The translations under genes were made by a program, and so were the position numbers. DNA of 64,000 nucleotides from Geminocystis herdmanii PCC 6308 (GTDB taxonomy: Bacteria; Cyanobacteriota; Cyanobacteriia; Cyanobacteriales; Cyanobacteriaceae): assembly GCF_000332235.1 (NCBI RefSeq), contig NZ_CM001775.1, positions 1,890,230 to 1,954,229 on the forward strand, read 5' to 3'. Positions 5,740-59,611 of this stretch are shown here, in pieces. Position 1 is the first letter of the stretch. Every line of letters begins with the position of its first letter. Under the pieces are notes generated by a model. The model had not been told where the DNA came from. It saw nothing but the letters and a program-made list of their open reading frames with translations, and did no database searches.

Positions 5740-7542
5740 ATGATTGTTCCTTTAATTAGTGGTTTTATCGGTATTTTAATTAGTCTGTTTAGTTGGCTAT
5801 TTTATCAAGAAAAATTAACTTTTTTACCTTCTAAGTTATTATTGTTCGGTAAGAAAAATAAATTAATTGTCCTGGGTTTAAATATTATCAGCTTAGGGTT
5901 ATTTTTAGGATTAGTAGGTTTTTTCTTTAATTTTGGTGTTCTCTTTCGTTCTTTGCGTGTTTTTTTATTAATTATTGGATTTGTCTGTATCAAAAAATCT
6001 TTAAATCAAAATATAAATAATTTTCCTGATTTACCCTTATTTATTAAGGCAATTATCCAAATAAAAAGTATTCAAAGTTTACAAATATTTGCTGGTATCA
6101 TTATTAGTTTTTTATTCTTAAAAAGTATTCTCGCTGTAGATTGGACAGGCGGTGATAGTTGGATGTATCAACTGCCTTTTGCCGCTCGTTTTTGGGGTTT
6201 AGTTTCTCCTGAACAATATATTTTTGAAGCGGAAAGAGAACCTTTTTATAATACAACCACAATGTTACCGAATATTTTACAGGGTTTTTTCTGGTATTTA
6301 TTAGGAAAAAATCGTCCTCAAGGAGCAAATTTAGTTAGTTTTTTTAGTTTAATTGGCTATTTTATTTTTATTAAATATTATCTTAAAATTCCCTATTATT
6401 TATCGGTAATTGCTATTTTAGCTGTACCTTTAATTCACATTGCTACAACTTCTGCTTATGTGGATTTATTGACTAATGTCGGTTTTTCGATCGTACTAAT
6501 CATAACCTATTTATTGTTTATTAAAGAAAATTTTATTAACTATAAAAATGTCTCAATGTTCATTTTAGGAGGATTTATTGCAGGGAATAGCAAATATTTA
6601 TTAGTGCCTCCTTTAGCCTTAGTTATGGCTTTTGTTTTTGGTCGAATTTTATGGTTAATTTTTTATCGTTTTAATCCAGTAAACAGAGTCAAAAATATAT
6701 TAATTTTATTAGTAACTATGGCAGGAACAAATGTGATTATTTTTCTTACTTCTGTGAAAAATATAATTTTATATCAAAATCCTTTTTATCCCTTAAAAAT
6801 TACTATTTTAGGCTATGAATTAAATCATATTATTGTGCCTAGTGGTGATTATATGTCCGATAAAATTGCAGATATGTATCCTCTACAAAGATGGATTTTT
6901 TCTCTCTTAGAAATAGGTGCTTTTGACGATCGAAGGCCATGGCCTTGGACTGTAGCAATGGACTATGTGCCTCTTGATGCGGATAGTTTTGGTATGGGAG
7001 GATATTTTGCTATTTATGTTGTGTTTAACGTTGTTTTATTTGGCTGTTTATGTAGGTTAAATAATCCTGAAACTCGCACAGCTTTATACTTAGTTATTAT
7101 CATGAGTGTTGTGACACCTTTTCTTCCTTTTGCCTATCAATTAAGATATTATATGTATTGGATAATAGTCTTAATTACTCTCAATTTATACTTATTAATT
7201 CAGCAGTATGAATTAACTAAAAATAGATGGTTAAAACCGCAAAATTATGCCTATGTCGGTATATTTGTGATGATGATTTTTACGACTCTTACTCGTTGGG
7301 ATTATACCTATCCTAATGCTATGTCTTTAGAAAAGTTTATGATCGATCGAGTTGATCAAGATGTTATCACGATGTTAGAAGAAAAAAAAGAGGCTTGTTT
7401 AGTGGGTTTTACTCCCCTAACTTTTCTTTATAACTCCGCCTTTCATGAGGGCAAAAACTATACAGTGAAAGCAGAATTTAACCTCAGTAAAGAAGAAGTG
7501 ACAGAAAAGTGCGGCGATCGACCTATAATTTATAAAGAATAA
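5740..7542 (+). CDS. Polytopic membrane protein, GT-C glycosyltransferase-like
   Basis: A 600-residue protein with some twelve predicted membrane spans, opening MIVPLISGFIGILISLFSWL. After the third or fourth span lies a loop, VDWTGGDSWMYQLPFAARFW, followed by a long soluble stretch with YQLPF, FYNTTTMLPNILQGFFWYL and PQGANLVSF. The layout of an acidic first loop with multiple spans and a short soluble C-terminus (DQDVITMLEEKKEACLVGF) resembles GT-C enzymes that use lipid-linked sugars. No catalytic residue can be assigned with certainty. The following glycosyltransferase genes support a role in surface glycan assembly. Confidence 0.6.
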   Translation: MIVPLISGFIGILISLFSWLFYQEKLTFLPSKLLLFGKKNKLIVLGLNIISLGLFLGLVGFFFNFGVLFRSLRVFLLIIGFVCIKKSLNQNINNFPDLPLFIKAIIQIKSIQSLQIFAGIIISFLFLKSILAVDWTGGDSWMYQLPFAARFWGLVSPEQYIFEAEREPFYNTTTMLPNILQGFFWYLLGKNRPQGANLVSFFSLIGYFIFIKYYLKIPYYLSVIAILAVPLIHIATTSAYVDLLTNVGFSIVLIITYLLFIKENFINYKNVSMFILGGFIAGNSKYLLVPPLALVMAFVFGRILWLIFYRFNPVNRVKNILILLVTMAGTNVIIFLTSVKNIILYQNPFYPLKITILGYELNHIIVPSGDYMSDKIADMYPLQRWIFSLLEIGAFDDRRPWPWTVAMDYVPLDADSFGMGGYFAIYVVFNVVLFGCLCRLNNPETRTALYLVIIMSVVTPFLPFAYQLRYYMYWIIVLITLNLYLLIQQYELTKNRWLKPQNYAYVGIFVMMIFTTLTRWDYTYPNAMSLEKFMIDRVDQDVITMLEEKKEACLVGFTPLTFLYNSAFHEGKNYTVKAEFNLSKEEVTEKCGDRPIIYKE

Positions 7543-8311: not shown

Positions 8312-9442
8312 ATGGATTCTCTTGAATTATCAATCATTATGCCTTGTCTAAACGAGGCGGAAACCCTCGCTACCTGTATCAAAAAAGCTCAATGGTATCT
8401 GCAAGAATATCAAGTTACTGGAGAAGTTGTTATTGCGGATAATGGTAGTACTGATGGATCGCAAAATATTGCGATCGAACTAGGGGCAAGATTAGTTAAT
8501 GTGAAAGAAAAAGGCTATGGTAGTGCGCTAATGGGAGGAATTATGGCAGCGCGAGGAGAATTTATTATCATGGCGGATGCTGATGATAGCTATGATTTTA
8601 CTGCCTTAAATCCCTTCGTGGAGAAATTGAGAAGTGGTTATGACTTAGTGATGGGGAATCGTTTTAAGGGTGGGATTAAAGAGGGTGCGATGCCTTTTTT
8701 ACACAAATATCTAGGGAATCCCGTTTTAACTTGGATAGGGAAATTGTTTTTTAAGAGTCCATGTAATGATTTTCATTGTGGTTTAAGGGGATTTCGTAAA
8801 CAAGCTATTCTTGACTTAAATTTACGCACAACTGGCATGGAATTTGCTTCGGAAATGGTAGTAAAAGCGACTCTTAACGGCTTAAAACTAACGGAAGTAC
8901 CGACTACCTTATCACCGGACGGGCGCACCCGTAAACCCCATTTGCGTACATGGAGAGACGGTTGGCGACACCTGAGATTTTTATTATTATACAGCCCCCG
9001 TTGGTTGTTTCTTTATCCAGGGTTTTTCTTGATGGTGATGGGTTTTATTACTACCATTATTCTCTTAGGTAGTCCTAGAGTTCATAGTTTATTATACTCT
9101 GCCACTGCTATTATTATTGGATTTCAGTTAGTTAATTTTGCTATTTTTACCAAAGTTTATGCTATCCAAGAAGGGTTATTACCTCCTGACAAAAAATTGT
9201 TTAACTTGCTAGATCAATTTAGTTTAGAACAAGGATTAATTTTAGGTACAATATTATTTTTTATTGGGGTTATCACTTCTATTATTGCCTTGTTTCAGTG
9301 GGAATCAACGGGTTTTATGGCATTAAACCCTGCTTTAACTATGCGTTTAGTTATTCCTTCTGTTACAGCGATCGCCTTGGGATTACAAATTATTTTTGCT
9401 AGTTTTTTTCTGAGTGTTTTTCAACTAAAAGTAAAGGTTTAA
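8312..9442 (+). CDS. Family 2 glycosyltransferase, dolichyl-phosphate-sugar-synthase type
   Basis: A 376-residue enzyme. The N-terminal GT-A domain (about 5-230) shows LSIIMPCLNEAETL, VIADNGSTDGS, MADADDSYDF (D-x-D metal/nucleotide site), VMGNRF and CNDFHCGLRGFRK, all characteristic of DPM/GtrB-like GT2 enzymes that load a sugar onto a polyprenyl phosphate. The C-terminus has four hydrophobic spans (about 230-375). It would supply the lipid-linked sugar donor used by a GT-C enzyme, and one candidate lies upstream at 5740-7542. The donor sugar cannot be told from sequence. Confidence 0.88.
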   Translation: MDSLELSIIMPCLNEAETLATCIKKAQWYLQEYQVTGEVVIADNGSTDGSQNIAIELGARLVNVKEKGYGSALMGGIMAARGEFIIMADADDSYDFTALNPFVEKLRSGYDLVMGNRFKGGIKEGAMPFLHKYLGNPVLTWIGKLFFKSPCNDFHCGLRGFRKQAILDLNLRTTGMEFASEMVVKATLNGLKLTEVPTTLSPDGRTRKPHLRTWRDGWRHLRFLLLYSPRWLFLYPGFFLMVMGFITTIILLGSPRVHSLLYSATAIIIGFQLVNFAIFTKVYAIQEGLLPPDKKLFNLLDQFSLEQGLILGTILFFIGVITSIIALFQWESTGFMALNPALTMRLVIPSVTAIALGLQIIFASFFLSVFQLKVKV

Positions 9443-9551
9443 AAATTAAAGTCAAATTAAAAATCGAGAAAAATTGTCAAAGAATAATAAAGCATTTAAC
9501 AAACATGATATTCTTAGTAAGGATAATTGCATATAATCTTTTTTTCTACTC

Positions 9552-11906
9552 ATGTTATTACAGTCGATCGAACATCAACAAAACGAATTACGACAACGAT
9601 TAAAATTAGCTATAGAAGATGTAAAAATCATTCAACAGTTTGGCGATTATGACTTTATCATCTCCCATGCAGAAGTAAACCATCGTCACGGGGTGGGAGT
9701 GTTACTAAAAAGAATTTTTCGGGATGATCAAAATATAGTATCAATTCGTTCTCATAATCTCTATGATGGAAAAGATAATTTTGGTAATTTTAATTTTCTG
9801 ATTCACCATAAGAGCTACAATCTTAGCACTATTTATGAGCAAGTTCGATCGACTTTAGGGAGTCTCAAACCCAAAAGAATATTATGTATTCCCTATTTTC
9901 TTGATGACATCTTAACCACTCTTGCCATTAAAGAGATGTTTGATGTACCATTATGTACTTATTTGATGGATGATCAAAATATCTATGTCAATGAAATTCC
10001 AGATAATTCCATGGCACAATTACTAGATAAATCAGATTTATGCCTTGGTATCTCCAGAAATTTATGTCAAGCCTATCAACAAAAATACCATAAAAAAATT
10101 TACTTTGTTCCTCCCGTCGCACCTCAACAATTCATTGTCAAAAATACCATAATTTTTCCCTCTTCAAGACAAAAAAAACACGGTGTATTAATAGGTAATA
10201 TTTGGAGTCAAACATGGCTCGATCGACTCAGAGAAACCGTAAGAACTTCTGGTGTTAAAATAGATTGGTATGGTAATCCCCATAGAGAGTGGCTCAAATT
10301 TGAAGAAACAGAATTAGCCCAAGACGGCATTACTTTTCAAGGTTATCTGGAAAACGAAGCGGATTTAGTGGCAAAATTAAGAGAAGCATCCTTTGCTATA
10401 ATTCCTACTGCTGACAATATTACTGCAAACGATCGCCTTGAAATAGCGAAATTAAGCCTTCCTTCTCGCATCCCCTTTTTAGTTGCAACCGCTCATCTTC
10501 CCCTGTTAGTTATGGGGGACAAAGATACTGCTGCCGCTCAATTTGTGCAAGATTTTCAACTAGGGGTAGTATGTAGATATAATTCTGGAGAATTTGCTGA
10601 AAAATTATCATGGATTATTGACGAAGAAAATCAACGTAGTATTCGTAATCGAGTCTCAAAATTAGCTCAATCTTTATCTTCTCAAGGTATCAAAGATTGG
10701 ATTTGGGATTCTTTAGCCCAAAAATCTCCTCAAGATAACCGCTTTGAAAAATTAGGACAATTTTTAAATGATGCTACCGTCATTCTCACCCATAACGAAG
10801 TTAATCAAAAACATGGTACAGGCGCATTAGTAAAACGCATTATTGCCGATACTCCCAATATTTATTCTATTCGATCAGACAACCATTACGGAGGCATCCA
10901 TAACTTTGGCGAAATTAGTTATTGTTTACCCCAAAAAGGCATATCTCGTATAGAAGCCTTTAAAATTATTCTCACCTTACTCGAAGACATTGAAGTAAAA
11001 CAAGCCTTTTGTGTTCCTTATTATACCGATGATTTGTACTTATCGATCGCCGTTAAAGAATTATTTAACGTGCCTTTAGGAGTTTATATCATGGATGATC
11101 AAAATATCGTAGCCAAAAATATCCCCGATGATTTAATGAGAGAATTTTTAAGTAAATGTTCCTTTCGTTTAGCTACTCATCCTGAATTAAGAGACGCTTA
11201 CGAAGAAAAATACGCCATGAGTTTTTATCTCTTACCCGCCGTTGTGCCTGATAATTTAATCTCTCGTAATATTACCACCCCCGATAAAAAATTATTTCAC
11301 ATCAAAACAGGTGCTTTAATTGGTAGTATTTGGAGCAATACTTGGTTTCAAATGTTAACCGATACCGTCAAAGGTGCTAATTTACATTTAGATTGGTATG
11401 GTAATTATAATTACCATTGGTTAACAGAATCTCCCTCAGAAATTAGTGAAAAAAGAAATATTACTCCCTACGGTGTAGTAGATGAAATCACTCTAGCCGA
11501 AAAATTAAAACAATATCCTTATGTCGTCGTGCCGACTGGTACACTAGATGAAAGAGACGATCGAGCAGAGTTATCCATCTTAAGTTTACCCGGTAGAATT
11601 ATTTTTGCTATGGCTTCTTCCCATACCCCAGTTATTATTTTAGGCAGTGAAAAAACCTCTGCTGGTGCATTTATTCAGCGATTTGGTATTGGAGTTGTCT
11701 GTGACTATAATCCCCAAAGTTTTAAAGAAGCAGTGGATTATGTTACTCAACCTGACATACAAAAACAGATGCGCCATCGAGCTTTTCAAGTAGCACAAGC
11801 ATTTTCTGGTGTAGATATTAATAATTGGATTTGGCAATCCTTAGAAAAAGGTAAACCTTCTGATGATAAATTTGAGAAATTATTTATGACCAAAATCAAT
11901 AATTAA
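9552..11906 (+). CDS. Internally duplicated GT-B-like glycosyltransferase candidate
   Basis: A 784-residue soluble protein made of two homologous halves, about residues 31-397 and 402-781. Matching pairs include SHAEVNHRHGVGVLLKRI / THNEVNQKHGTGALVKRI, DVPLCTYLMDDQNI / NVPLGVYIMDDQNI, LIGNIWSQTW / LIGSIWSNTW and IDWYGNPHREWL / LDWYGNYNYHWL. Each half looks like a GT-B fold: an N-terminal Rossmann part, then a C-terminal part with a P-T-(x)n-D/R-x-E/A-E-(L/I)-(x)-L-(S)-L-P region where nucleotide-sugar enzymes bind the donor. No signal peptide or membrane span. Placed between a GT2 enzyme and a FkbM methyltransferase, which fits glycan synthesis. I do not recognise a named family. Confidence 0.6.
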   Translation: MLLQSIEHQQNELRQRLKLAIEDVKIIQQFGDYDFIISHAEVNHRHGVGVLLKRIFRDDQNIVSIRSHNLYDGKDNFGNFNFLIHHKSYNLSTIYEQVRSTLGSLKPKRILCIPYFLDDILTTLAIKEMFDVPLCTYLMDDQNIYVNEIPDNSMAQLLDKSDLCLGISRNLCQAYQQKYHKKIYFVPPVAPQQFIVKNTIIFPSSRQKKHGVLIGNIWSQTWLDRLRETVRTSGVKIDWYGNPHREWLKFEETELAQDGITFQGYLENEADLVAKLREASFAIIPTADNITANDRLEIAKLSLPSRIPFLVATAHLPLLVMGDKDTAAAQFVQDFQLGVVCRYNSGEFAEKLSWIIDEENQRSIRNRVSKLAQSLSSQGIKDWIWDSLAQKSPQDNRFEKLGQFLNDATVILTHNEVNQKHGTGALVKRIIADTPNIYSIRSDNHYGGIHNFGEISYCLPQKGISRIEAFKIILTLLEDIEVKQAFCVPYYTDDLYLSIAVKELFNVPLGVYIMDDQNIVAKNIPDDLMREFLSKCSFRLATHPELRDAYEEKYAMSFYLLPAVVPDNLISRNITTPDKKLFHIKTGALIGSIWSNTWFQMLTDTVKGANLHLDWYGNYNYHWLTESPSEISEKRNITPYGVVDEITLAEKLKQYPYVVVPTGTLDERDDRAELSILSLPGRIIFAMASSHTPVIILGSEKTSAGAFIQRFGIGVVCDYNPQSFKEAVDYVTQPDIQKQMRHRAFQVAQAFSGVDINNWIWQSLEKGKPSDDKFEKLFMTKINN

Positions 11907-11978
11907 TCCCCCAGAGGAAGTCAGGAATAAGGAATAGTTATAAATTCTATATTTGTGTATATTTATTATTAAAAATTT

Positions 11979-13304
11979 ATGACATCAGAATCAAATAATA
12001 AAAAAGGTATTGCTAGTTTTTTAGCTAATTTACCTTTAATTAGACGAGTTAAAATTATTAAACAATTAATTCTTGAAAAACTAGATCAAGTTTTAGATCA
12101 AACGAATAATATAGATAATAAAACCAATAGTCTTTTAAATAATGATATTAGCTTATTAGAAGCTCTAATTTCGATTATAAATACCTTAAAAATTATTTAT
12201 AAACAGTCTCAGAATTACTATAATAATTTAATTAAAAATATTCAAGAAGATAGTCAAAAATACTATGAACATATCAATAAAAAATTACTAAATTTACTAG
12301 AAAATTCTCAATTTCAAAATGATAAATTAAATATTTTAGAAATACAATTTAAAAAAATAAATCAAGAATTATCAGACAAATTATCGATCGTCCAAGAAGA
12401 AATAATTAACGCTCAAGATTTGTCAAAACAATGTTTGACTCAACAACAAACAATCGAAAATATTTTAAATAGTTTGAACTCAAAAAAAATTATTATTAAT
12501 GATTCTTCCTATACATTAAAAAATCCAGAAATTGGTTTAATGATGTATTTATATTCTTTTTTACCGAATCGTTCCGCCATTGATATTGGAGCAAATATTG
12601 GGGATGTATCAGAAAGTTTATTAAAAGCAGGATATGAAGTTTATAGCTTTGAACCATTTTTACCAACCTATGAAAAATTAAAATCTCGACTCAACAATAA
12701 TCCTTATTTTCATAGTTATTCAGTGGCTTTAGGTGCAACCAATGAAACCAGAGAATTTTATCTAGCCACTGATACAACCCCAGAAAAAATTTATCAGGAT
12801 TCTAGCTTATATAACAGCTTAATTAAACATTCCATGCCCGATGATTTACTCTTTACCGATACCACTACGGTAACGGTTAAAACCTTAGCTAGTTTCCATG
12901 ACAATAACGAAATTCCTGCTAATATTGGTTTAGTCAAAATTGATACCGAAGGTTTTGATTTACAAGTGATTGAAGGTATGGAATTGTATCAATATCCCGT
13001 AGTCATCACAGAATTTTGGGATAAGAATATTCCCTTTGGGATTTCCGAAACCCATAATAAATTAGAAGATTTAGTAACCCAAATGCGTTGCCGAAATTAT
13101 CACTGGTATATTGTTATGTATCGAGTTTGGGGTGATCAAACAGATTCGATCACTTCGTGGCGCGATGCGATCGCATTCTACTGTAATAACTGTTATTCAG
13201 TCAAAAATAGTTGGGGAAATATCTTTTTCTTTCAAGATTACGATTTATTTTTACAGGCTCATCGCTGGACAACATCAATACTTCCTGAAACCTATTTCCG
13301 TTAA
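11979..13304 (+). CDS. FkbM-family methyltransferase with N-terminal coiled coil
   Basis: A 441-residue protein. Residues about 30-185 are rich in Asn, Gln, Lys, Leu and Ile with heptad spacing, giving a long predicted coiled coil. The C-terminal part (about 190-440) is a class I SAM methyltransferase: SAIDIGANIGDVSESLL (SAM motif I), VYSFEPFLPTYEKLK (acidic motif II), and GLVKIDTEGFDLQVIEGME, the FkbM signature K-x-D-x-E-G-x-(E/D)-x-x-V-(I/L)-x-G. FkbM enzymes O-methylate sugars or polyketides, here probably a surface glycan given the upstream glycosyltransferases. The coiled coil may tether or multimerise it. Confidence 0.85.
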   Translation: MTSESNNKKGIASFLANLPLIRRVKIIKQLILEKLDQVLDQTNNIDNKTNSLLNNDISLLEALISIINTLKIIYKQSQNYYNNLIKNIQEDSQKYYEHINKKLLNLLENSQFQNDKLNILEIQFKKINQELSDKLSIVQEEIINAQDLSKQCLTQQQTIENILNSLNSKKIIINDSSYTLKNPEIGLMMYLYSFLPNRSAIDIGANIGDVSESLLKAGYEVYSFEPFLPTYEKLKSRLNNNPYFHSYSVALGATNETREFYLATDTTPEKIYQDSSLYNSLIKHSMPDDLLFTDTTTVTVKTLASFHDNNEIPANIGLVKIDTEGFDLQVIEGMELYQYPVVITEFWDKNIPFGISETHNKLEDLVTQMRCRNYHWYIVMYRVWGDQTDSITSWRDAIAFYCNNCYSVKNSWGNIFFFQDYDLFLQAHRWTTSILPETYFR

Positions 13305-13451: not shown

Positions 13452-14570
13452 ATGTGGACAAAATTATTCTTCAAAACAACCTCTAAATTAAGTTTTATCG
13501 CCCTATTCTGGTTAATTTTCACCACCAGCGCCCATGCCGCCTTAGAATTGAGGGTAGCAATCAAAAAAAGTGTTAATAATCTACAAATCGGAAGTTCAAC
13601 TCCTGCAGTAATTAAAGACGGTGCAGGGCGTGTAATTGGACAAGTTGACGGAATGAACTCTTTTGTCGCTAAAACCAATGGCGGAAATGTAAACCTTGCT
13701 CAGTGGAATTCTACGGGGATATGGGTAGAGCCTAGCGGTGATGGTGTCACTTGGATCGGCGATCGATGGTATCGTGGTAGAGTGCTATTAACCCGTCAGG
13801 GTGGTGGAATTACTGCGGTTAACTATGTGGACATAGAAGAATACTTATATAGTGTAGTGGGAGCAGAAGCAATTCCCAGTTGGCCTCAAGAAGCCTTAAA
13901 AGCCCAAGCAGTAGCCGCTCGAACCTATGCTCTATATAAACGCAACACCAGTAAAAATAGCGTTTTTGATCTTGATACCACCACTGCTACGCAGGTATAT
14001 AAAGGATTAAGCAGTGAATACACCACCACCCATCAAGCGGTAAGAGCAACTAATGGGCAAATCATGACTTATAATAATCAACCCATTTTAGCAGTATTTC
14101 ATTCATCTTCGGGTGGGCATACGGAAAACGTTGAAGATATTTGGACTTCTCCCCTACCTTATCTCAGGGGTGTAGTGGACTATGATCAAACTGCGCCCGT
14201 TTTTCAGTGGAATAAAACCGTTTCTCCTTCTGCCATGAGTCGTGTCGCTGGTGGGGTGGGCAATATTCGAGCTTTAGTACCTCAAAAAACAACCCCTCAA
14301 GGTAGAATTGTTACTATGCAAGTCGTGGGCGATCGAAGTACAAGAAATGTTGCGGGTACACAGTTAAGAAGTGCTTTAGATTTACGCAGTACCTTATTTA
14401 GAGTATCCACTTCAGGTAATACCATTCAGGTATCAGGGAGAGGATTTGGTCATGGTTTAGGATTAAGCCAATGGGGTACATTTTATTTAGCTCAAAACGG
14501 CGTTGATTATCGTCAAATTCTCGGACATTACTATCAAAATGCTCGACTTGCCACCATGAGAACAAGATAA
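13452..14570 (+). CDS. SpoIID/LytB-domain protein (probable peptidoglycan lytic enzyme)
   Basis: A 372-residue exported protein. Residues 1-29 form a signal peptide (basic start, hydrophobic core, THSAHA-like cleavage region ending in AHA). The mature part carries the SpoIID core: VDIEEYLYSVVGAEAIPSWP, EALKAQAVAARTYALYK, FHSSSGGHTENVEDIW and, near the end, SGRGFGHGLGLSQWG. These are the conserved glutamate-containing and G-H-G-x-G-x-S-Q-W-G motifs. SpoIID cleaves denuded glycan strands in sporulating bacteria. Cyanobacterial homologues are assumed to act on periplasmic peptidoglycan. Confidence 0.9.
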   Translation: MWTKLFFKTTSKLSFIALFWLIFTTSAHAALELRVAIKKSVNNLQIGSSTPAVIKDGAGRVIGQVDGMNSFVAKTNGGNVNLAQWNSTGIWVEPSGDGVTWIGDRWYRGRVLLTRQGGGITAVNYVDIEEYLYSVVGAEAIPSWPQEALKAQAVAARTYALYKRNTSKNSVFDLDTTTATQVYKGLSSEYTTTHQAVRATNGQIMTYNNQPILAVFHSSSGGHTENVEDIWTSPLPYLRGVVDYDQTAPVFQWNKTVSPSAMSRVAGGVGNIRALVPQKTTPQGRIVTMQVVGDRSTRNVAGTQLRSALDLRSTLFRVSTSGNTIQVSGRGFGHGLGLSQWGTFYLAQNGVDYRQILGHYYQNARLATMRTR

Positions 14571-14679: not shown

Positions 14680-14904
14680 ATGAATAATACACAAGTCAGT
14701 TTAGAGCTACCAGATCATATTTCTGAAGATGAAGTTAAGTTATTATTAGCGATTAAAATGTATGAATTGCAGAAAATAACATTAGGACAGGCTTCTAAAA
14801 TTGCAGGTTTGTCTAAGTCTTCATTGATTGAAATTTTAGGCAAATATCAAATTCCTGTTTTTAATTATTCGCCGAATGAATTGCGAGAAGAATTGGGGCT
14901 ATGA
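14680..14904 (+). CDS. UPF0175-family antitoxin
   Basis: A 74-residue protein with VSLELPDHISEDEVKLLLAI and KITLGQASKIAGLSKSSLIE, the helix-turn-helix-like UPF0175 pattern (L-G-Q-A-S-x-I-A-G-L-S). Start ATG 14680 is preferred over an upstream TTG. The stop overlaps the start of the DUF3368 gene by 4 bp (ATGA). UPF0175 proteins are the usual antitoxin partners of DUF3368 toxins in cyanobacteria. Confidence 0.87.
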   Translation: MNNTQVSLELPDHISEDEVKLLLAIKMYELQKITLGQASKIAGLSKSSLIEILGKYQIPVFNYSPNELREELGL

Positions 14905-15353
14905 ATCAGATTATTATTGCCGATAGCACCTGTTTAATCGGATTAGAAAGAATTGGTAAGTTAGAAATTTTACCCCAATTATTTGACTCAATTTTAATTC
15001 CGCCTAAAGTAGCTGAAGAATTTGGTTTCACTCTATCTTGGTTAAATGTTGTAAATATTACAGATAAAGGTTTAGTATGCGCTTTAACAATGATTGTTGA
15101 TGATGGAGAAGCAGAAGCAATTACCCTTGCTTATGAGACTAAGGTTAAAGTAATTTTAGATGATCAACAAGCTCGTAAAGTTGCTCGGAATATGAAAGTT
15201 ACTTTTATTGGTACAATAGGGATTTTAATTCAAGCGAAACAATGCGGAATTATTCAATCAATTAAACCGTTATTAGATGATTTAGAAAATAATAATTTTT
15301 ATTTAAGTAAAAATCTAAAACAAGAAGCATTAACTATCGTTAATGAAATGTAA
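14901..15353 (+). CDS. DUF3368 PIN-like toxin
   Basis: A 150-residue DUF3368 protein: MNQIIIADSTCLIGLERIGK (first catalytic Asp within IADSTCLI), VDDGEAEAITLAYE (conserved D-x-G-E-A-x-A motif), VILDDQQARKVA (D-D-x-x-A-R) and FIGTIGILIQAK (G-T-x-G-x-L). These are the canonical blocks of the PIN-related DUF3368 family, presumed ribonucleases. Translationally coupled to the UPF0175 antitoxin upstream. Confidence 0.9.
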   Translation: MNQIIIADSTCLIGLERIGKLEILPQLFDSILIPPKVAEEFGFTLSWLNVVNITDKGLVCALTMIVDDGEAEAITLAYETKVKVILDDQQARKVARNMKVTFIGTIGILIQAKQCGIIQSIKPLLDDLENNNFYLSKNLKQEALTIVNEM

Positions 15354-51240: not shown

Positions 51241-51303
51241 CTCCCTAATCCCCTAATTCCCTAATCCCCTAATCCCCTAATCCCCTAATTCCCTAATCCC
51301 CTA
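51241..51303. repeat. Heptamer tandem array (CCCTAAT) entering the kinase gene
   Basis: Eight or nine CCCTAAT or TCCCTAA units. The last units (51285-51303) overlap the 3' end of the large kinase gene and encode its C-terminal R-G-L-G-N and TAG stop. Confidence 0.9.
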
Positions 51304-54300
51304 GTTAACAATTCCTGAATTTTAGCTACTAATTCTTTGAGTTTCAATGGCTTGGTTAAATACTCATTTGCTCCAATTTGTAAACATTTTTCTCGATCGT
51401 GCTCCATAGCTAGGGCAGTTAGGGCAATAATAGGTATATCAACACTTTCGGGATTTTGGCGTATCCTTTCAATGGCTTCTAAACCGCTCATTTTGGGCAT
51501 TTGAATATCCATTAAAATTATATCTGGTTTTTCCGATCGAGCTAAAGTAATGGCATCTTGACCATTTTGGGCGATAATTAAACGATAACCCTTAGCTTTT
51601 AAATAACTGGAAATAGTACTAATATTCGCCTCGTTATCCTCCACCAGTAAAATTAAGGCTTCTTTAAGGGGAGTTTGAGCATTATTAGGGGCTGTTGTTT
51701 CTTGGTTATTATCTGTTGATGGAATGGAAACAGAAGGGGTATAAGGTAAAGCAATAGTAAAACAACTCCCCGTGCCTAGTTTGCTACTGAGAATCATATA
51801 TCCTCCATGTAATTCGACAATTCTTTTTACTAAAGCTAACCCTAAGCCTGTGCCTGAATATTGACGATTTAAAGCACTATCGACTTGCACAAAAGGCTCG
51901 AATAAAGTCTTAATTTTATTGGGGGGGATACCTATACCTGTATCGATAATGGAGATATAAATATCGTTGTGGGGGATGTTTTCGGGATTTTCAAAAATTT
52001 GGGTGACAAAATCAGGTTTCTCTGGGGGGAAATGATGGGTAACTTTAATGGTGATGTTGCCTCCTTCCGTGGTGAATTTAACGGCATTGTTGAGCAAATT
52101 AATTAATACTTGTCGGATTCTCCTTTCATCAATCGTCAGACAAGGTAGATTAAGGGGAAGTTCAGTTTTTAATTGTATTCTCTTTTTCAAAGCTAGTTGT
52201 TTAACAAAGGTTAAACTAGATTCACATAGACTTTTCAAGGAAACACTGCTTAACTGTAACTCTAGGTGTTCGGCTTCGATTTTGGCTAAGTCGAGAATAT
52301 CATTGATTAATTCTAGTAAATGCGTTCCACTACGATCGATCGTCTTTAAGGCTTTCAGTTGTCTTTCGTTAATGTCACCAAATACCTGTTCGCTTAAACC
52401 TTCTGCCATGCCTAAAATGGCGTTAAGAGGAGTGCGCAATTCGTGGCTCATATTAGCCAAAAATTCGTCTTTGAGGCGATTAGCTCTGATTAACTCTTGA
52501 TTACTCTGAAATAGTTGCTCTTCCGTTAATTTCTTCCGTCGATCGAGGCGATAACCTTCAATTAAAATACTACAAGTCATCAAAAACGGTTGTAAATATT
52601 CGATCGTACATTGATCATAACCGCCGGGGGTATTGGCAATACCGACAATGCCGATTAAATTATCACCACTGAAAAAAGGTAAGCCTAAAAAAGCGTTTAA
52701 GGGAGGATGTCCTTCGGGTGTACCACCACGGCGAGAATCAGTGCTAGGATTATTGGCAATAACGGGTTTTCCTGTCATAATTACAGCACCAAACAGGGTA
52801 TTCATATTCGTAAACTCCATACCTTGCTCATAATTATCTTCATAGTATTTCTGAGTTTCTTCATTCCATGCCATATTAGTGACACTATGAGTTTGTAAAT
52901 AGGGTATTCCCTTAATTTTTAAGAAGTTTTCTTCCATCACGGCACTACCGTCTTCTCGAAATAGTACTTCTCCAATAAAACCGTATTCACTATGGGTTAA
53001 GTCTAATAAATCCGTAAGTAGTTGTTCAAAAATAATTAAGCGATTCTCGGCAGTAATAAACTGAGATTCTGCTCTAGTCATGGTAGAGAGTAAGTCGTTA
53101 TTTCTTTGAATGGTGTTAATTAAAGCGGATTTTTCCTGTTCATTTTTTCTTCTGTCGGTAATGTCTCTGACGGCGGAGTAGATATAATTATTCTCAGTAG
53201 TTACCGCCCGCCATTCTAACCAACGATAACTACCGTCTGCACAACGATAACGATTGATGAAAGAAGCAATTTCTCCTTCTATTTTCAGGTAGTTGATTGC
53301 TTCTAGGGTAGAGGGTAAATCGTCAGGATGAATATAGTCTAAAAATCTTGAGCCTTCTATTTGTTTAACGGGATAACCTAAAACTTTTTCCCATTCTTTA
53401 TTTACTCTGATAAAGTAACCATTCAGATTAGCAATAGATAGTAAGTCAATGGCGAGGGAGAAAAATCGATCGATTTCTTTGGTTTTGTTCTTTAATTGTA
53501 TTTGGGCTTGTTTTCGATCGTTAACATTGGCAACATAACCGACAATTTCCGTAGGATTACCGTCAGCATCACGCCACAGCATCATCTCATCTTGTACCCA
53601 AATATATTTATCATCTCCTGTCAAAAAGCGGTATTCAATACGAAAATGATTATTAGTAAAAAGTTCTTCTGCCATTTCTTCTCTGAAAATTTCATAATCT
53701 TCAGGATGGATAAAGTCATGCCATAAAAACAACCCTGACAAAAAGTCTTCTGAGTCATAATTGACAATGGTTTTTACATTTTGACTAATAAATTTGAGAG
53801 GATAGTTAGGGGGATTAACTTCACAACTATAAATAATTGCCGGGCTAGACGATAATACAAATTCTAACCGTTCTTTTAAAACTATATTTTCTTTTTCTTT
53901 AGCTTTTCTTTCTGTAATGTCTTGAATAACCCCAAGAACAAAAGTAATATGAGTGTTATCTTCTTTGGGTAAAACGGAAGTAGAAATAGTAATGGTGCGT
54001 TTATCGCCATATTTGGTGTGAATTTCCCATTCTTCGGTGATGATATTATCTCCTTGACGCATTCTGCTCATTCTTGCTATGGCTTGAGCCTGAATTTCTG
54101 GATTCGGATATAAACTTTGATACCAACCCAAGGTGTTTATTTCTTCAAGGCTATAACCAGTAATTATTTCCATTCTGGCATTCCACACGGTAAAACGGAC
54201 AAAGGGATGCTCATTAATTTCGTAACAAACGCATAACCCGTCTCCCATTTGCTCAAGAATTTGTTGTCGGAAGGTGTTTTCTTTGTGGATTCTGATTTCT

Positions 54301-57300
54301 CCTAGTTTTCGATCGGTAATATCAAAGCGAATTGTGAGATATTGAAAGGGATTACCTTCTTGATCTAAAAAAGGGACGATCGTACTTTCTACCCAATAAA
54401 AACCTCCTGATTTATTGCGATTACAAATTTCTCCTCGCCAAATCTCTCCTTTTTCGATGATTTCCCAGAGATTTTTAAAGAAACCACGAGAATGATAACC
54501 AGAATTAAGTATTCTATGGGTATTGCCGATTAATTCTTCTCGACTATAGCCTGAAAGAGTTAAAAATCGATCGTTAACATAGGTAATTATTCCCTTGCTG
54601 TCGGTAATGGCAACGATGGCGGATTGATCTAAACCTTGTTTAAAGGCGGATAATTCTTGTAATATTTTTTGTTTTTCCATTTCATCCCGTCTTTTTTGGG
54701 TAATATCATAAAAAATACCCACTAAACCGACAATTTTTCCTTGATTATTTTTGAGGGGAGTTTTGTTGGTTTCTACCCACATCACCTCACCATTAGGTAA
54801 AGTCAGAGTTTGTTCGATAAATAATTTAGGTTTTCCAGAAGTGATGACTTCAACATCATCTTGACGACATTTCGCTAATTCTTCTGAGGTAAAAGATAAG
54901 TTTATTTGACTTGTATCACTAATATTAACGGTATCGGGGATATTCATTAAACGAGCTAAGGTACGATTACAACCGAGAAAATTAGATTCTCGATCTTTCC
55001 ATACCACACACACGGGTAATGTATCTAAAAGAGTTTGTAAAAAATGTTGAGATTCTTCTAATTTTCTTTCTATTTCTTTCCGATCGCTTATATCCATAAT
55101 GACACAAACAGATGTATCATCTTCCATCATTAACGCCACCCCAAGTAACACGAAGACTAAATGCCCGTCTTTATGATAATAGGCTTTTTCCCAAGGTTCG
55201 ATCGTGCGATGAATTTTCAGATATTCAATACAATCTAAGTCTTGTTGATGATATTCAGGGGGTGTCAGGGTTGCCCAATTAAGCATTCCTGCTTCTAATT
55301 CTGCTTTGGTATAGCCTAACATCTCTAAAAATCGATCGTTAGCTTCAGTAATTGTGCCACTAAAATCGGTAAACATAAAGCCTACAATATTCGATTCAAA
55401 AATGCGCCGAAAACGAAATTCACTATCTCGTAGGGCTTTTTCTGCTTTTTCACGATATATCCGTGCTTCTTCTTCCTTCGTAATATCTTTACCAATGCCC
55501 AAAAAACCAATAATTTCTTCTTTTTCATTTTTCAAAGGATTAACCACCATCAAGATGGGAAAACGAGTACCATCTTTTTTAATATTGGTAATGGTAAACT
55601 CGTTAACCATACCTAACCTTGATTTAATAGTAAAAACAGTAATATCGGGGGGAATTTCTCGCCCTAACTCTTGAGATAATTGCACAGCAAGGGCTTGGGC
55701 TTCTTCTAAATCCACGAATAATAAAGGAGTGGCTTTCCCGACAACTTCTTCGGCTTTATAACCCAACATTTTTTCTGCCCCAAAGTTAAAGGTTTGAATA
55801 AAACCATTACAGTCAGTGGAAATAATGGAATAGTCGGTACTATCAAGAATCATTTTTTGTAGATGATTGATTCTCCATAGTTCATGGGTACGCTGGGCTA
55901 CTTTAATTTCTAATTCGTAATTTAATTTAGCTAGTTTTAATTCTGCTTCTTTTAATTTGGTGATGTCTTGTACTGTACCTCTGGAAATTAAAGGTTTACC
56001 ATCTTCGTTGTAATCTGTTTCGCATTGCTCTTGAACATATTTAACTTGACCATCAGGAAGAATAATGCGATGACAAATATTATAATCAGTTTGATTATTG
56101 ACATGACTCTCATAGTTCTCATTAACAAAGGCTCGATCGTTAGGATGTATCAATTCTAAAAAACTTTTGTATGAAGGAGTAAAGTTTAAAGTAGAAACAC
56201 CGAAAATAGAAAAACACTGTTTTGACCAATAAAGACTATCTTCAGGGTGATTATATTCCCAATGTCCTAATTTCGCTATTCTTTGGGCTTCTTTCAAACG
56301 GAAGCTCGTTATTTCTATTTGTTTTTGAGATTTAATTAATTCTATCTCGTTTAATTTCCCTTCCGTAATATCTTCGGCAATGCCGCAAACTCGCACATTA
56401 TTAACCCCTGAATTTTTAACGAGAAAGTTACGATCTAAAATCCAGCGAATTTCACCATCAGGGCGAACAATGCGATATTCAACGGTGGTTTGTTGCCCTA
56501 ATTTTTGACTTTCGTAGGCTTGAATCACAAGGTTTTGATCTTCGGGATGCACACTCTCCATGTACGATCGAGGATTATCATATAAACTTTGACAGGATTT
56601 TCCCCAAATATGCTCGTAAGTAGGACTAATATAGAGTATTTTTCCTTGTTTCAAATCCGTTAAATAAAAAATTTGCTCGATATTTTCTGCTAATTGACGA
56701 AAACGACTTTCACTCTCTTTAACTAAGGCTTCGGCTTTTTGTCTTTCTTCTAATTCATTTTCGAGGTTGTGATAGTTAATAGACTGTTGTATGGCGATGG
56801 CTAAATTAACGGTTATTTCTTGAAAGAGGGAAATATCTTCTTCCTGCCATTGTCGAAAATCTTGACATTGATGCCCAATTAAAAGTCCCCATAATTGCTC
56901 TTGTAAGCGAATCGGTATAATTAAGTTAGATTTGATCTGATATTGTTCGACAAATTCTATATAACAATCTGGATAATCTGCCGTGTAAATATTCTCAATG
57001 GCGATAGCTTCATCGGTGTTGTATTTTGCTTTACTAGCTACATATTCTTGAAAACAGGCATCTTCAACTTTATTTCCTTTAGCTTTCAAAAATTTTTCAT
57101 TAACGGATTCAGCCACAATAACCCCACTCCAATCGGGATTAAACTGATAGACTAAAACTCGATCGCACCCAGAAAAAGCGCGTAATTCATCGACACAAGT
57201 ATTTAAAATTTCCTCAAGATGGAGAGAGACTCGAATACGATTACCAATTTCGGCGATTAATTTTTCTCTCTTGGCTTTATTTTTTAATTCTTTGGTTTTT

Positions 57301-58310
57301 ATTTTAACGGTTTCTTCTAACTCTCGATTGCGGTTATGTAAGAGGGCATATTTTTCTAATTCTAATTCTTTCACCCGTTGCTCTAACATGGTTGCCATGT
57401 TATAAATTTCGAGAGGATTGAGAGCTTGTAAGATATTAGTTTGAGTCACAATACCCACAATCTTCCCTTTATCCCCCGTAACTAATAAACGACGAATCAA
57501 ATGTTTTTCCATCAAATGTTGAACTGTCAACAAAGATTCATCTAAATCTACGGTTATTAGAGGGCAACTCATGACATCTCCAGCTTGATAGCTCTTAAAA
57601 TCCAGATGTAATGCTTGAAATTGTACTAAATCTCGCTCACTGACAATACCAACGGGTAATTCTTGAATTTGCCCTTCTGTCTCCCTTTTTCCTGTAATAA
57701 TAATACAACTTACTCGATGGAGAGTCATTTTTCGGGCAATTTCCATCAAAGATGCTTTTTCATCGGCACAGATAACCTGATGAATCATTACTTCTTTGAC
57801 TTGTCGTAACTTTAATAAGTCAATGGGGCGAGATAGTTGTCTTAAACTTTCATGGGTAACTAAGCCCGTTAATCGATCGTGATCATCTAAAATGGGGAGA
57901 TGACGAATTTTATATTGATAAAGTAAATTAATCGTCCAAAATAAATCGGTGAATTGACTTTCAGCAAAAGTAATCACAGGGGAAATCATTACTTCCTCCA
58001 CCGTGATATGATCCAGTGATGGATTCTCGATACTTAAACGAACAATATCCCTTTCTGTTAAAATACCAATTACTTTTTCTTCTTCAACTACAATCACACA
58101 ACTCGTGCGCACTGCTTGCCCTTGGCATCGAGCTTCGATTTCTAGGGATTTTTTATTCCTATCTTGATCATAGGATGTATCACAACTAGAATGAATGCCA
58201 CTCATTAGCTCGATCGCTTCTCTTACCGTAGTTTGAGGAGATACCGTGAGGGGATGACGAATAATACCAGATTTTAATTCTTCGATCGTCAGGGGAACGT
58301 AGTTTAACAT
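51285..58310 (-). CDS. Giant hybrid sensor kinase: 4xCBS-GAF-9xPAS-GAF-HisKA-HATPase-REC
   Basis: A 2341-residue cytoplasmic protein with no membrane span. Approximate layout: four CBS repeats (3-290), coiled coil, GAF (350-517), nine PAS/PAC units (537-1725), second GAF (1750-1917), HisKA with FLANMSHELRTPLNAILGMA (phospho-His near 1955), HATPase_c (2060-2190: NLLNNAVKFT, DTGIGIPP, GTGLGLALVKR) and REC (2225-2340: LLVEDNEANIS, LMDIQMPKMSG with phospho-Asp near 2267, ALTA, K in LTKPLK). CBS domains often bind adenyl nucleotides. The first GAF lacks an obvious Cys-His chromophore site. The C-terminus is heptamer-derived. A REC-HK gene lies 92 bp upstream. Confidence 0.93.
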   Translation of the reverse strand: MLNYVPLTIEELKSGIIRHPLTVSPQTTVREAIELMSGIHSSCDTSYDQDRNKKSLEIEARCQGQAVRTSCVIVVEEEKVIGILTERDIVRLSIENPSLDHITVEEVMISPVITFAESQFTDLFWTINLLYQYKIRHLPILDDHDRLTGLVTHESLRQLSRPIDLLKLRQVKEVMIHQVICADEKASLMEIARKMTLHRVSCIIITGKRETEGQIQELPVGIVSERDLVQFQALHLDFKSYQAGDVMSCPLITVDLDESLLTVQHLMEKHLIRRLLVTGDKGKIVGIVTQTNILQALNPLEIYNMATMLEQRVKELELEKYALLHNRNRELEETVKIKTKELKNKAKREKLIAEIGNRIRVSLHLEEILNTCVDELRAFSGCDRVLVYQFNPDWSGVIVAESVNEKFLKAKGNKVEDACFQEYVASKAKYNTDEAIAIENIYTADYPDCYIEFVEQYQIKSNLIIPIRLQEQLWGLLIGHQCQDFRQWQEEDISLFQEITVNLAIAIQQSINYHNLENELEERQKAEALVKESESRFRQLAENIEQIFYLTDLKQGKILYISPTYEHIWGKSCQSLYDNPRSYMESVHPEDQNLVIQAYESQKLGQQTTVEYRIVRPDGEIRWILDRNFLVKNSGVNNVRVCGIAEDITEGKLNEIELIKSQKQIEITSFRLKEAQRIAKLGHWEYNHPEDSLYWSKQCFSIFGVSTLNFTPSYKSFLELIHPNDRAFVNENYESHVNNQTDYNICHRIILPDGQVKYVQEQCETDYNEDGKPLISRGTVQDITKLKEAELKLAKLNYELEIKVAQRTHELWRINHLQKMILDSTDYSIISTDCNGFIQTFNFGAEKMLGYKAEEVVGKATPLLFVDLEEAQALAVQLSQELGREIPPDITVFTIKSRLGMVNEFTITNIKKDGTRFPILMVVNPLKNEKEEIIGFLGIGKDITKEEEARIYREKAEKALRDSEFRFRRIFESNIVGFMFTDFSGTITEANDRFLEMLGYTKAELEAGMLNWATLTPPEYHQQDLDCIEYLKIHRTIEPWEKAYYHKDGHLVFVLLGVALMMEDDTSVCVIMDISDRKEIERKLEESQHFLQTLLDTLPVCVVWKDRESNFLGCNRTLARLMNIPDTVNISDTSQINLSFTSEELAKCRQDDVEVITSGKPKLFIEQTLTLPNGEVMWVETNKTPLKNNQGKIVGLVGIFYDITQKRRDEMEKQKILQELSAFKQGLDQSAIVAITDSKGIITYVNDRFLTLSGYSREELIGNTHRILNSGYHSRGFFKNLWEIIEKGEIWRGEICNRNKSGGFYWVESTIVPFLDQEGNPFQYLTIRFDITDRKLGEIRIHKENTFRQQILEQMGDGLCVCYEINEHPFVRFTVWNARMEIITGYSLEEINTLGWYQSLYPNPEIQAQAIARMSRMRQGDNIITEEWEIHTKYGDKRTITISTSVLPKEDNTHITFVLGVIQDITERKAKEKENIVLKERLEFVLSSSPAIIYSCEVNPPNYPLKFISQNVKTIVNYDSEDFLSGLFLWHDFIHPEDYEIFREEMAEELFTNNHFRIEYRFLTGDDKYIWVQDEMMLWRDADGNPTEIVGYVANVNDRKQAQIQLKNKTKEIDRFFSLAIDLLSIANLNGYFIRVNKEWEKVLGYPVKQIEGSRFLDYIHPDDLPSTLEAINYLKIEGEIASFINRYRCADGSYRWLEWRAVTTENNYIYSAVRDITDRRKNEQEKSALINTIQRNNDLLSTMTRAESQFITAENRLIIFEQLLTDLLDLTHSEYGFIGEVLFREDGSAVMEENFLKIKGIPYLQTHSVTNMAWNEETQKYYEDNYEQGMEFTNMNTLFGAVIMTGKPVIANNPSTDSRRGGTPEGHPPLNAFLGLPFFSGDNLIGIVGIANTPGGYDQCTIEYLQPFLMTCSILIEGYRLDRRKKLTEEQLFQSNQELIRANRLKDEFLANMSHELRTPLNAILGMAEGLSEQVFGDINERQLKALKTIDRSGTHLLELINDILDLAKIEAEHLELQLSSVSLKSLCESSLTFVKQLALKKRIQLKTELPLNLPCLTIDERRIRQVLINLLNNAVKFTTEGGNITIKVTHHFPPEKPDFVTQIFENPENIPHNDIYISIIDTGIGIPPNKIKTLFEPFVQVDSALNRQYSGTGLGLALVKRIVELHGGYMILSSKLGTGSCFTIALPYTPSVSIPSTDNNQETTAPNNAQTPLKEALILLVEDNEANISTISSYLKAKGYRLIIAQNGQDAITLARSEKPDIILMDIQMPKMSGLEAIERIRQNPESVDIPIIALTALAMEHDREKCLQIGANEYLTKPLKLKELVAKIQELLTRGLGN

Positions 58311-58342: not shown

Positions 58343-58412
58343 GTTTGTAGTGGTGGCTTTAGCCACTAATTAATAATTGAGACAAAAGGGCTAAAGCCCT
58401 TACTACGAACCT
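58343..58412. repeat. Double palindromic element, repeat family 2, at kinase junction
   Basis: GTTTGTAGTGGTGGCTTTAG at one end and AGGGCTAAAGCCCTTACTAC then GAAC at the other form a long inverted repeat with two inner palindromes. It fills the spacer between the two kinase genes and supplies V-G-S-stop of the upstream one (58403-58412). Confidence 0.8.
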
Positions 58413-59611
58413 ACATTTTCATCCCTAGAAAAAATGGGTAAACCCACTGTTACTTTTATATTCTGCCCATAAACACTACTAATATTGACAAAACCCTTGA
58501 CAACTTGAGCAATTATTTTCACCAGTTTTAAACCAATGCCAACTCCTTGTTGACTATAAGTATCTCTTTCAAATTGAATGAAAGTACCGATTTTAGAAAT
58601 TTGTTCTGGTGTCATACCTTTTCCTATATTGTGAATAGAAATATACATCATATTATTTTTAATATGACTGGAAACTGTTATTGGTGAACCTTTTTTGGAA
58701 AATTTTAAAGCATTGTCAACCAACTCCGATAACACAGTTAATAAGTAGTTTTCACTAATGGCAATTTCCGCTTCTTCAATGTCAAAAATTATGTCCTCCG
58801 TACGATCGTAATTTTTAGCGCATCTTCTCACCATCAATTCCACAATCGGTAGAGAAAAAAGGCTTTCTTGCGGAAATACAGATAAATTATTTGTTCCCGA
58901 TAATTCTAATTGTAGATATAAAAGAAACCTGTTTGTTAAATTAACTAATCGATTAGCGGAAAATTGAGCCAATTCCAGTAACTCTGACATTTCATCATGA
59001 TCAAACTTATCAAAATCAGTCTTGATAATTTGTAAGATACCGACAATACCATTTAAAGGAGTATTTAACTCATGGGATAAACTAACAGCGATATTTCCTG
59101 TTAATTCATCCATGTTTTTGGCTAATGTATTGATGGTGTTTCTTTGCAAAGTAGAAAACTTTTGAATTTCATCATATTGAGTTTTCATTCTTAACATCGA
59201 TTTTACCCTAGCCCTTAACTCCATGCTGTTAACGGGTTTACCGATAAAATCATCGGCACCCGATTCTAAACAATTAGCTAAATCCTCCTTCGAGTTTAAA
59301 GCTGTCACCATAATAATTGGTATTACCTTCCATCTTGCCCTGTTTTTTATTTGTCGGCACACCTCAATCCCGTCTAATTCTGGCATCATCACATCTAAGA
59401 GAATTAAATCCGGTTGTACATCATCTAAAGTTGCGATGGCTTCATAACCATTAGAAGCGTAATGTAAAGAATAATTTTCATTACTTAAAAATGTTTCAAT
59501 GACATCAAAATTATCAGGCTCATCATCAACAACTAAAATAGAAGAAAATTTCATATAGATACTGGGCGAGGGCATAATTTGAGCTAAGTAGTGATAGATA
59601 AGAGATGACAT
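58403..59611 (-). CDS. REC domain fused to histidine kinase
   Basis: A 402-residue soluble protein. The receiver domain (about 20-140) has ILVVDDEPDNFDV, LILLDVMMPELDG (phospho-Asp), IIMVTALNSKED and the Lys of FIGKPVNS. The kinase part follows: HisKA with NIAVSLSHELNTPLNGIVGI (phospho-His near 180), then HATPase with ELVDNALKFSKKG, HNIGKGMTPEQ and GVGIGLKLVKIIA. Start may be ATG 59611 or 59554 (MKFSSILVVDDE). The order REC-HK suggests it is activated by phosphorylation, possibly by the large kinase downstream. Its last residues V-G-S come from a repeat. Confidence 0.92.
   Translation of the reverse strand: MSSLIYHYLAQIMPSPSIYMKFSSILVVDDEPDNFDVIETFLSNENYSLHYASNGYEAIATLDDVQPDLILLDVMMPELDGIEVCRQIKNRARWKVIPIIMVTALNSKEDLANCLESGADDFIGKPVNSMELRARVKSMLRMKTQYDEIQKFSTLQRNTINTLAKNMDELTGNIAVSLSHELNTPLNGIVGILQIIKTDFDKFDHDEMSELLELAQFSANRLVNLTNRFLLYLQLELSGTNNLSVFPQESLFSLPIVELMVRRCAKNYDRTEDIIFDIEEAEIAISENYLLTVLSELVDNALKFSKKGSPITVSSHIKNNMMYISIHNIGKGMTPEQISKIGTFIQFERDTYSQQGVGIGLKLVKIIAQVVKGFVNISSVYGQNIKVTVGLPIFSRDENVGS

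Follow-up and report, generated by a model that had tools for sequence, protein, structure and literature searches.

A tandem GT-B protein beside a stem-bearing methyltransferase in Geminocystis herdmanii: a probable two-site glycosyltransferase of surface-glycan synthesis

The available portions of two reports (PMC11231755, PMC3482155) describe WbdA, from Escherichia coli O9a and O8, as a chain of two or three glycosyltransferase (GT) modules, one per linkage, and WbdD as a protein in which a methyltransferase is combined with a coiled-coil ruler and with a membrane-associated region, the latter recruiting WbdA. Klebsiella pneumoniae has stem proteins in which, according to the accessible part of the literature, a termination enzyme, a coiled-coil stem, and GT modules come in varied orders: O7 ORF6, with GT2 modules and a methyltransferase-kinase terminator, and O12 WbbB, whose terminator is a glycosyltransferase. 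Here we describe a cyanobacterial locus that can be compared with these proteins. It lies in a 64,000-nucleotide stretch of the Geminocystis herdmanii PCC 6308 genome (NZ_CM001775.1, positions 1,890,230 to 1,954,229; hereafter the window), and pairs a 784-residue tandem protein of predicted GT-B fold with an FkbM-type methyltransferase that bears a stem.

The open reading frame (ORF) of the tandem protein consists of two copies of one module of about 370 residues. In a two-sequence BLASTP comparison its halves share 139 identities over 369 columns (38%), with 59% positives, five gaps, and an E value of 9e-97, which rules out a chance repeat. This bears out the initial annotation, which had proposed that the halves align along their length and share motifs: MDDQNI (residues 139–144 and 514–519), IGxIWSxTW (214–222 and 590–598), and DWYGN (Table 1). 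A module profile sets the module boundaries as tabulated; they had been drawn at residues 31–397 and 402–781.

Both halves are predicted to belong to the GT-B fold superfamily, with its two Rossmann-like domains. An AlphaFold2 model of the whole protein, built on an alignment of 18 rows, has a mean predicted local distance difference test (pLDDT) of 88.5 and a predicted template modeling score (pTM) of 0.67; the latter leaves the relative placement of the halves unsure, each half being well modeled. Foldseek against the Protein Data Bank (PDB) returned 235 matches at E ≤ 0.001. A capsule-synthesis multienzyme (8qoy) ranks first, GT4-type enzymes come next, and UDP-GlcNAc 2-epimerases (1v4v, 3ot5, 1o6c, 1f6d) appear lower in the list. 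In VIA-align, model residues 31–391 and 406–768 fall on HepE, sucrose-phosphate synthase, MshA, PimA, and BshA (best 20 rows: Z 23.9–26.9, root-mean-square deviation (rmsd) 3.3–4.4, 316–346 aligned residues, 10–14% identity). Among the VIA-align matches listed, 50 of 50 rows are glycosyltransferases.

Where scores were given, the family is named by no Pfam or NCBIfam model at its cut-off; it appears to be related to GT4 and WbbI/Gtf3-like transferases, toward which its matches weakly point. The whole tandem protein matched no Pfam family at E ≤ 1, and its C half matched none; the N half reached Glyco_trans_1_4 (PF13692) at E 0.016 (15.9 bits against a cut-off of 27), with no NCBIfam match at E 0.1 and a Symplekin_C match (E 0.14) taken as chance. 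Among 28 modules scanned singly against Pfam, PF00534 (Glycos_transf_1) appeared in three (best E 1.1e-4) and PF13439, PF13524, and PF13692 in one each; these four best families are all glycosyltransferase models, and the remaining three, at E 0.05–0.1, look like chance. The best relative with a bit score reached 21.9 bits for PF00534 against a cut-off of 26.4. Against NCBIfam, three PRK09814 (WbbI/Gtf3-like) models were matched by five, two, and one of the 28 members (best E 1.2e-5, 2 of 28). NF007325 (WbbI-like) gave two weak matches in 59 cyanobacteria, neither above its 491-bit cut-off.

By hhalign, a profile of eight WbbI-like proteins aligned with the module profile at score 34.8 (E 8.6e-4, probability only 23.6%), against at most 22.9 for 30 column shuffles and 14.1 for the reversed profile. 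A bridging cyanobacterial protein (L021; labels beginning with L denote loci, and those with G genomes) aligned with the family profile at E 2.1e-10 and matched PF00534 at E 0.0023, below cut-off. The fold and the glycosyltransferase resemblance proposed from the DNA alone are thus both found, the former in both halves of the model and the latter, weakly, in several members. Single-sequence hhalign was powerless, giving E 0.23–0.33 for WbbI, WcaI, WcaL, and the negative control 6-phosphogluconate dehydrogenase. PDB sequence searches gave nothing meaningful (best E 0.29 and 0.15), PHROGs a best match at E 0.003 to a family without function, plasmid and phage records no match, and viral contigs 45 pattern matches with no relatives among them.

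Among the closest described systems are two groups of glycosyltransferases. With the GT4-type retaining enzymes (HepE, MshA, PimA, BshA) the window protein shares the predicted GT-B fold in both halves (Z about 24–27), and its family gives weak Glycos_transf_1 and Glyco_transf_4 signals; it differs in its identity of about 10–14%, its Pfam scores, its lack of a conserved EX7E motif, and its tandem modules. Gtf3/GtfC (GT113) structures are among the VIA-align matches (3rhz_A, Z 23.1; 3qkw_C, Z 22.9), and in the comparison with WbbI the window's PSR aligns with PHK, and the C-terminal blocks of the two families align as well. Unlike these enzymes, the window family stays below the NCBIfam cut-off, aligns poorly over its full length, and has no evident counterpart in the window of the basic Arg179/Lys180.

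The available part of the Gtf3/GtfC report (PMC12809243) presents three functional sites: Asp101, the presumed catalytic residue; Arg179 and Lys246 (Lys246/Lys251), which handle the diphosphate; and Tyr211/Trp214, which stacks on uracil. By eye, the candidate equivalents in the N module are Asp141 for Asp101, Arg306 for Lys246, and Tyr240 for Tyr211. By this analogy, Asp141 in MDDQN is a candidate catalytic acid, DWYGN a candidate base-stacking position, and Arg306 a candidate diphosphate-binding residue. Of these three, the profile alignment supports Arg306 alone, setting it on the lysine of WbbI PHK. A global hhalign run to set Asp141 on the WbbI HD motif failed, the N domain staying unresolved and the full-length alignment poor; no basic residue is evident by eye in the window protein at the place of Arg179/Lys180.

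The candidate residues recur in both halves. On a panel of 39 positions, picked for conservation and hence biased, the two halves of the window protein differ at one (Ser168/His543). Sixteen two-module proteins were compared: both halves retain Asp141, Tyr175, and Trp239 in all 16, Tyr240 and Arg306 in 15 each, and the full set of five in 14. Compared with the window's, the N half differs at 0–3 of the 39 positions in 15 of the 16, that is, in all but one Synechocystis salina copy.

The duplication is old. A tree of 43 of the 45 modules groups 18 N-type modules in one clade (99/94). A second clade, of 20 rows (100/99), contains the C halves and three further members: a module from Bryobacteraceae, the one from S. 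salina C83, and the stem-borne Ki2 copy; the remaining single modules branch beside this C clade. (A near-identical Pirellulaceae copy, L054, and a 35-residue piece of L049 were left out, later-fetched modules are absent, and the midpoint root serves for drawing only.) The separate N and C clades place the duplication before the divergence of the gene lineages found today in Geminocystis, Synechocystis, and Microcystis. Within the chains of the 16 two-module proteins, N and C halves are 25–44% identical, which together with the separate clades rules out a recent duplication or gene conversion; every N half also lies closer to some other N half than to the C half of its own chain. Conservation was counted over 17 of the 18 N-clade and 17 of the 20 C-clade rows. 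Both halves are under purifying selection: the ratio of nonsynonymous to synonymous substitution (dN/dS, NG86) is 0.09–0.26 in 13 of 14 half-by-pair comparisons, dS being saturated in the 14th. An old duplication with both halves kept under selection is what the initial annotation had read from the window. In the Microcystis pair L043/L050, fourfold-site identity along the GT gene ranges from 0.33–0.40 (residues 181–360) to 1.00 (residues 481–600), in bins of 15–22 sites; this unevenness suggests recombination between alleles.

At E ≤ 0.001 the GT family was found in 16 of 386 cyanobacteria in a phylum sample (10 of them strong) and in 27 of 388 in an order sample (23 below 1e-30). The two samples share genomes, and scoring was limited to five candidates per genome. 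Bryobacteraceae and Pirellulaceae have members too, according to a scan of genome contigs. The modules have been shuffled. Among the loci read, chains with one GT module occur in G067, G597, G663, G462, Okeania, Pirellulaceae, and as S. salina C83; 17 chains have two modules, and L044 has three. Bryobacteraceae carry two adjacent one-module genes, L047 a two-module gene with a stem-GT gene behind it, and Okeania a GT module and tetratricopeptide (TPR) repeats in one chain. In 16 chains read, an FkbM domain (type B) is fused directly behind the last GT module. The neighbors vary by locus: GT2, sulfotransferase, GDP-mannose dehydratase, ABC export, and further FkbM genes. A 1597-residue chain in G139 (L057:5475-10268, minus strand) combines sulfotransferase, SPASM, radical SAM, a divergent GT module (MEDRN for MDDQN), and a class III aminotransferase. 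Broken GT gene copies stand in L052, L120, and L124 (genomes G007, G614, and G616), with the partner pieces broken too in G007 and G616; this suggests that the cassette is in decay in several lineages. Searches of the largely open-access literature turned up no comparable system, whether tandem GT-B or FkbM-linked.

The methyltransferase partner carries a stem module that is common to FkbM partners and one GT partner. Seven aligned FkbM partners (376–459 residues) share a conserved N-terminal basic segment and have a variable middle part. A stem gene adjoins the GT gene in 15 of the 18 loci with at least two modules in one ORF; it carries FkbM in 14 and a GT module in one. That one is L047:5514-6911 (plus strand), where the stem module bears a GT module in place of FkbM. 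A stem-module search of 21 genomes found the stem in 11 of 12 GT carriers (including G007, with its broken copy) versus 0 of 9 non-carriers, G049 being the carrier without a stem; each of the 11 has a single match, no more than about 2 kb away from the GT gene. Five of the searched genomes supplied rows for the stem profile; with these excluded, the counts are 6 of 7 carriers versus 0 of 9. AlphaFold models the partner poorly overall (pLDDT 47), drawing residues 56–166 as one helix. A heptad test backs five of seven stems (0–22 of 300 shuffles reach the value), with no support for the window's own stem (182/300) or that of L042 (70/300). By eye, the FkbM stems of L040, L043, and L044 contain tandem repeats in their middle part, in frame and about 14, 18, and 26 residues long; stem length can therefore vary from one relative to another.

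On balance we consider it probable, with real room for doubt, that the tandem protein is a two-site glycosyltransferase of surface-glycan synthesis that works with a methyltransferase. Each half would most likely be an independent transfer site that uses a nucleotide sugar, and a single chain would thereby extend one growing surface glycan by two sugars or two linkages; the FkbM enzyme next door, with its stem, would probably act in the same pathway and methylate this glycan. What we infer here is the presence of two active sites, the use of nucleotide sugars as donors, and a surface glycan as the product that is methylated. The initial annotation had left two possibilities: two sites in one chain, or one catalytic half and one binding half. 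The former is favored, since 14 of the 16 two-module proteins carry the candidate active-site residues in each half; the latter fits one S. salina copy. More broadly, relatives with one, two, or three module copies, often beside or fused to a methyltransferase, suggest modular machinery for building and decorating a sugar chain at the cell surface. With the one-, two-, and three-module series one could test whether extra modules bring extra linkages, and the stem-methyltransferase link offers an entry into surface-glycan assembly and variation in cyanobacteria, Microcystis and Synechocystis among them.

Several observations weigh against a two-site enzyme: the unsure mutual placement of the halves in the model; the absence of NF007325 from the window's genome at E ≤ 0.001; and the GT4 EX7E motif, whose spacing occurs in 16 of 43 modules, scattered and at no shared position. 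So do substitutions in individual relatives (N143T, D151E, and Y240H in the Ki2 N half; P285L in the N half and R66H and K127T in the C half of Nodosilinea), as well as the uneven conservation of the halves, which would suit an unlikely alternative: that only the C half is catalytic and the N half is an old pseudo-enzyme or an acceptor-binding support. Of 15 relatives set against the window, 13 show higher conservation in the C half (N/C identity 56/68% in G010, 48/55% in G049, and 50/62% in PMM372), whereas in the window's own genus, and only there, the order is reversed (79/69% in G003, 72/67% in CG32). The S. salina copy G139 C109 has an N half that differs at 15 of the 39 panel positions (D140E, P304S, and R306L among them) and a C half that differs at only two, both common in C halves; this degenerate copy, however, has an intact paralog, G139 C24, in the same genome, and the N halves of the other 15 two-module proteins are nearly unchanged on the panel. 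Also on the side of a C-half enzyme, the two single-module FkbM fusions in the tree, those of G067 and Pirellulaceae, branch outside the N clade under the midpoint root.

It is decidedly improbable that the halves are GT-B-fold proteins other than glycosyltransferases, such as nucleotide-sugar epimerase-like enzymes or glycan-binding scaffolds. GT-B folds do include non-transferases, the epimerases among the Foldseek matches being an example, and no family member reaches a Pfam or NCBIfam glycosyltransferase cut-off where bit scores are given; both facts count against a transferase. The uniformly glycosyltransferase rows of VIA-align, the four best Pfam families, the PRK09814 matches in up to five of 28 members, and the bridging protein argue the other way. 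Little probability also attaches to cytosolic protein glycosylation, as by Gtf3/GtfC on serine-rich adhesins, in place of polysaccharide synthesis. The WbbI-like profile match and the TPR repeats in the Okeania chain would fit such a role, but WbbI itself is annotated in the E. coli K-12 O-antigen cluster, and the neighbors in relatives fit polysaccharide or lipid-linked glycan synthesis. Among the six neighboring ORFs in the window, Pfam found no adhesin or secretion protein; no wider search was made.

The two-site reading has a narrower version, which we regard as doubtful: the locus might be an independently built second polymerase-terminator system, in which a two- or three-module GT-B polymerase, unlike WbdA in sequence, is joined by an FkbM protein that docks through a helical stem of variable length, caps the glycan, and sets chain length. 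If so, the stem would be the organizing part of a swappable glycan-assembly cassette, as its carriage of a GT module in one genome suggests. To judge from the accessible accounts, the resemblance to WbdA/WbdD (E. coli O9a/O8; K. pneumoniae O3/O5) lies in the multi-module chain, with two GT modules in the window and three in L044, and in its adjoining protein, which joins a methyltransferase to a stem predicted to be helical. Unlike that system, the window has GT modules of another sequence family, an FkbM domain at the opposite end of the stem, and a partner without a kinase domain by Pfam. The likeness to the K. pneumoniae O7 and O12 stem proteins is one of parts in varied order, and the locus differs from them in the types of GT module and terminator. 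A Nodosilinea locus has ABC2_membrane and Wzt_C genes. Across the genomes compared, Wzt_C does not co-occur with the GT family (4 of 12 carriers, the window's genome scoring below cut-off, versus 4 of 9 non-carriers), which argues against a close WbdA/WbdD parallel. Since Wzt_C is not associated and both cassette order and families differ, we take the broader two-site reading over a polymerase-terminator system.

Table 1. Features of the tandem GT-B locus and its surroundings, in window coordinates
Feature	Coordinates	Strand	Basis and remarks
CDS, 784-aa tandem GT-B protein	9552..11906	+	ORF list, ATG start; orthologs at 74, 69, 61, and 50–51% identity
N-terminal helix, residues 2–28, ahead of module 1 (predicted)	9555..9635	+	AlphaFold2, block pLDDT 50–75
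N module, residues 31–398, predicted GT-B fold	9642..10745	+	Profile match; VIA-align 4xsp_A Z 26.3, rmsd 3.5, 332 aligned; 4xyw Z 25.1, rmsd 3.3, 316 aligned
MDDQN motif, N module (139–143)	9966..9980	+	Conservation
DWYGN motif, N module (238–242)	10263..10277	+	Conservation
LSLPSR motif, N module (301–306)	10452..10469	+	hhalign sets PSR on PHK of WbbI
C module, residues 406–774, predicted GT-B fold	10767..11873	+	Profile match; VIA-align 6kih_A Z 26.9, rmsd 3.7, 342 aligned
MDDQN motif, C module (514–518)	11091..11105	+	Conservation
DWYGN motif, C module (614–618)	11391..11405	+	Conservation
LSLPGR motif, C module (677–682)	11580..11597	+	Conservation
CDS, FkbM-type methyltransferase partner, 441 aa, 72 bp downstream	11979..13304	+	PF05050 E 1.6e-15; TIGR01444 8.4e-24
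Stem module, residues 10–50, conserved R-x4-K-x-L-x-L-x-K-x-D pattern	12006..12128	+	Alignment, genome search, architecture table
Predicted long helix, residues 56–166	12144..12476	+	Model pLDDT 47 overall, blocks 61–160 at 66–77; length varies between relatives
FkbM methyltransferase domain core, residues 202–335	12582..12983	+	Pfam
GT2 glycosyltransferase, upstream	8312..9442	+	PF00535 5.4e-25; TIGR04182 3.8e-36, 125 bits against a cut-off of 325
600-aa protein, no Pfam match, polytopic membrane-like by eye	5740-7542	+	Pfam scan
DUF3368 protein	14901-15353	+	PF11848 7e-14; downstream of SpoIID-like gene 13452-14570
2341-aa hybrid histidine kinase: CBS, GAF, many PAS domains, receiver	51285-58310	-	
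Further receiver-kinase	58403-59611		

The tandem ORF is separated from its neighbors by 109 bp (9443-9551) upstream and 72 bp (11907-11978) downstream, distances that would permit an operon; scans for promoters and terminators came out near chance (37 against a mean of 29.6, standard deviation 5.4; and 2 against 3.0). The upstream GT2 protein resembles polyprenyl-phosphate sugar transferases and possibly belongs to the same pathway. Large membrane-like proteins without a Pfam match recur near the GT gene: the 600-residue protein in the window, and others in L042, L046, L060, and L064. By eye, they resemble polyprenyl-phosphate-sugar-dependent transferases. Farther off in the window lie the two kinase genes of Table 1, and downstream of the methyltransferase is a DUF3368 protein, which we take to be PIN-like.

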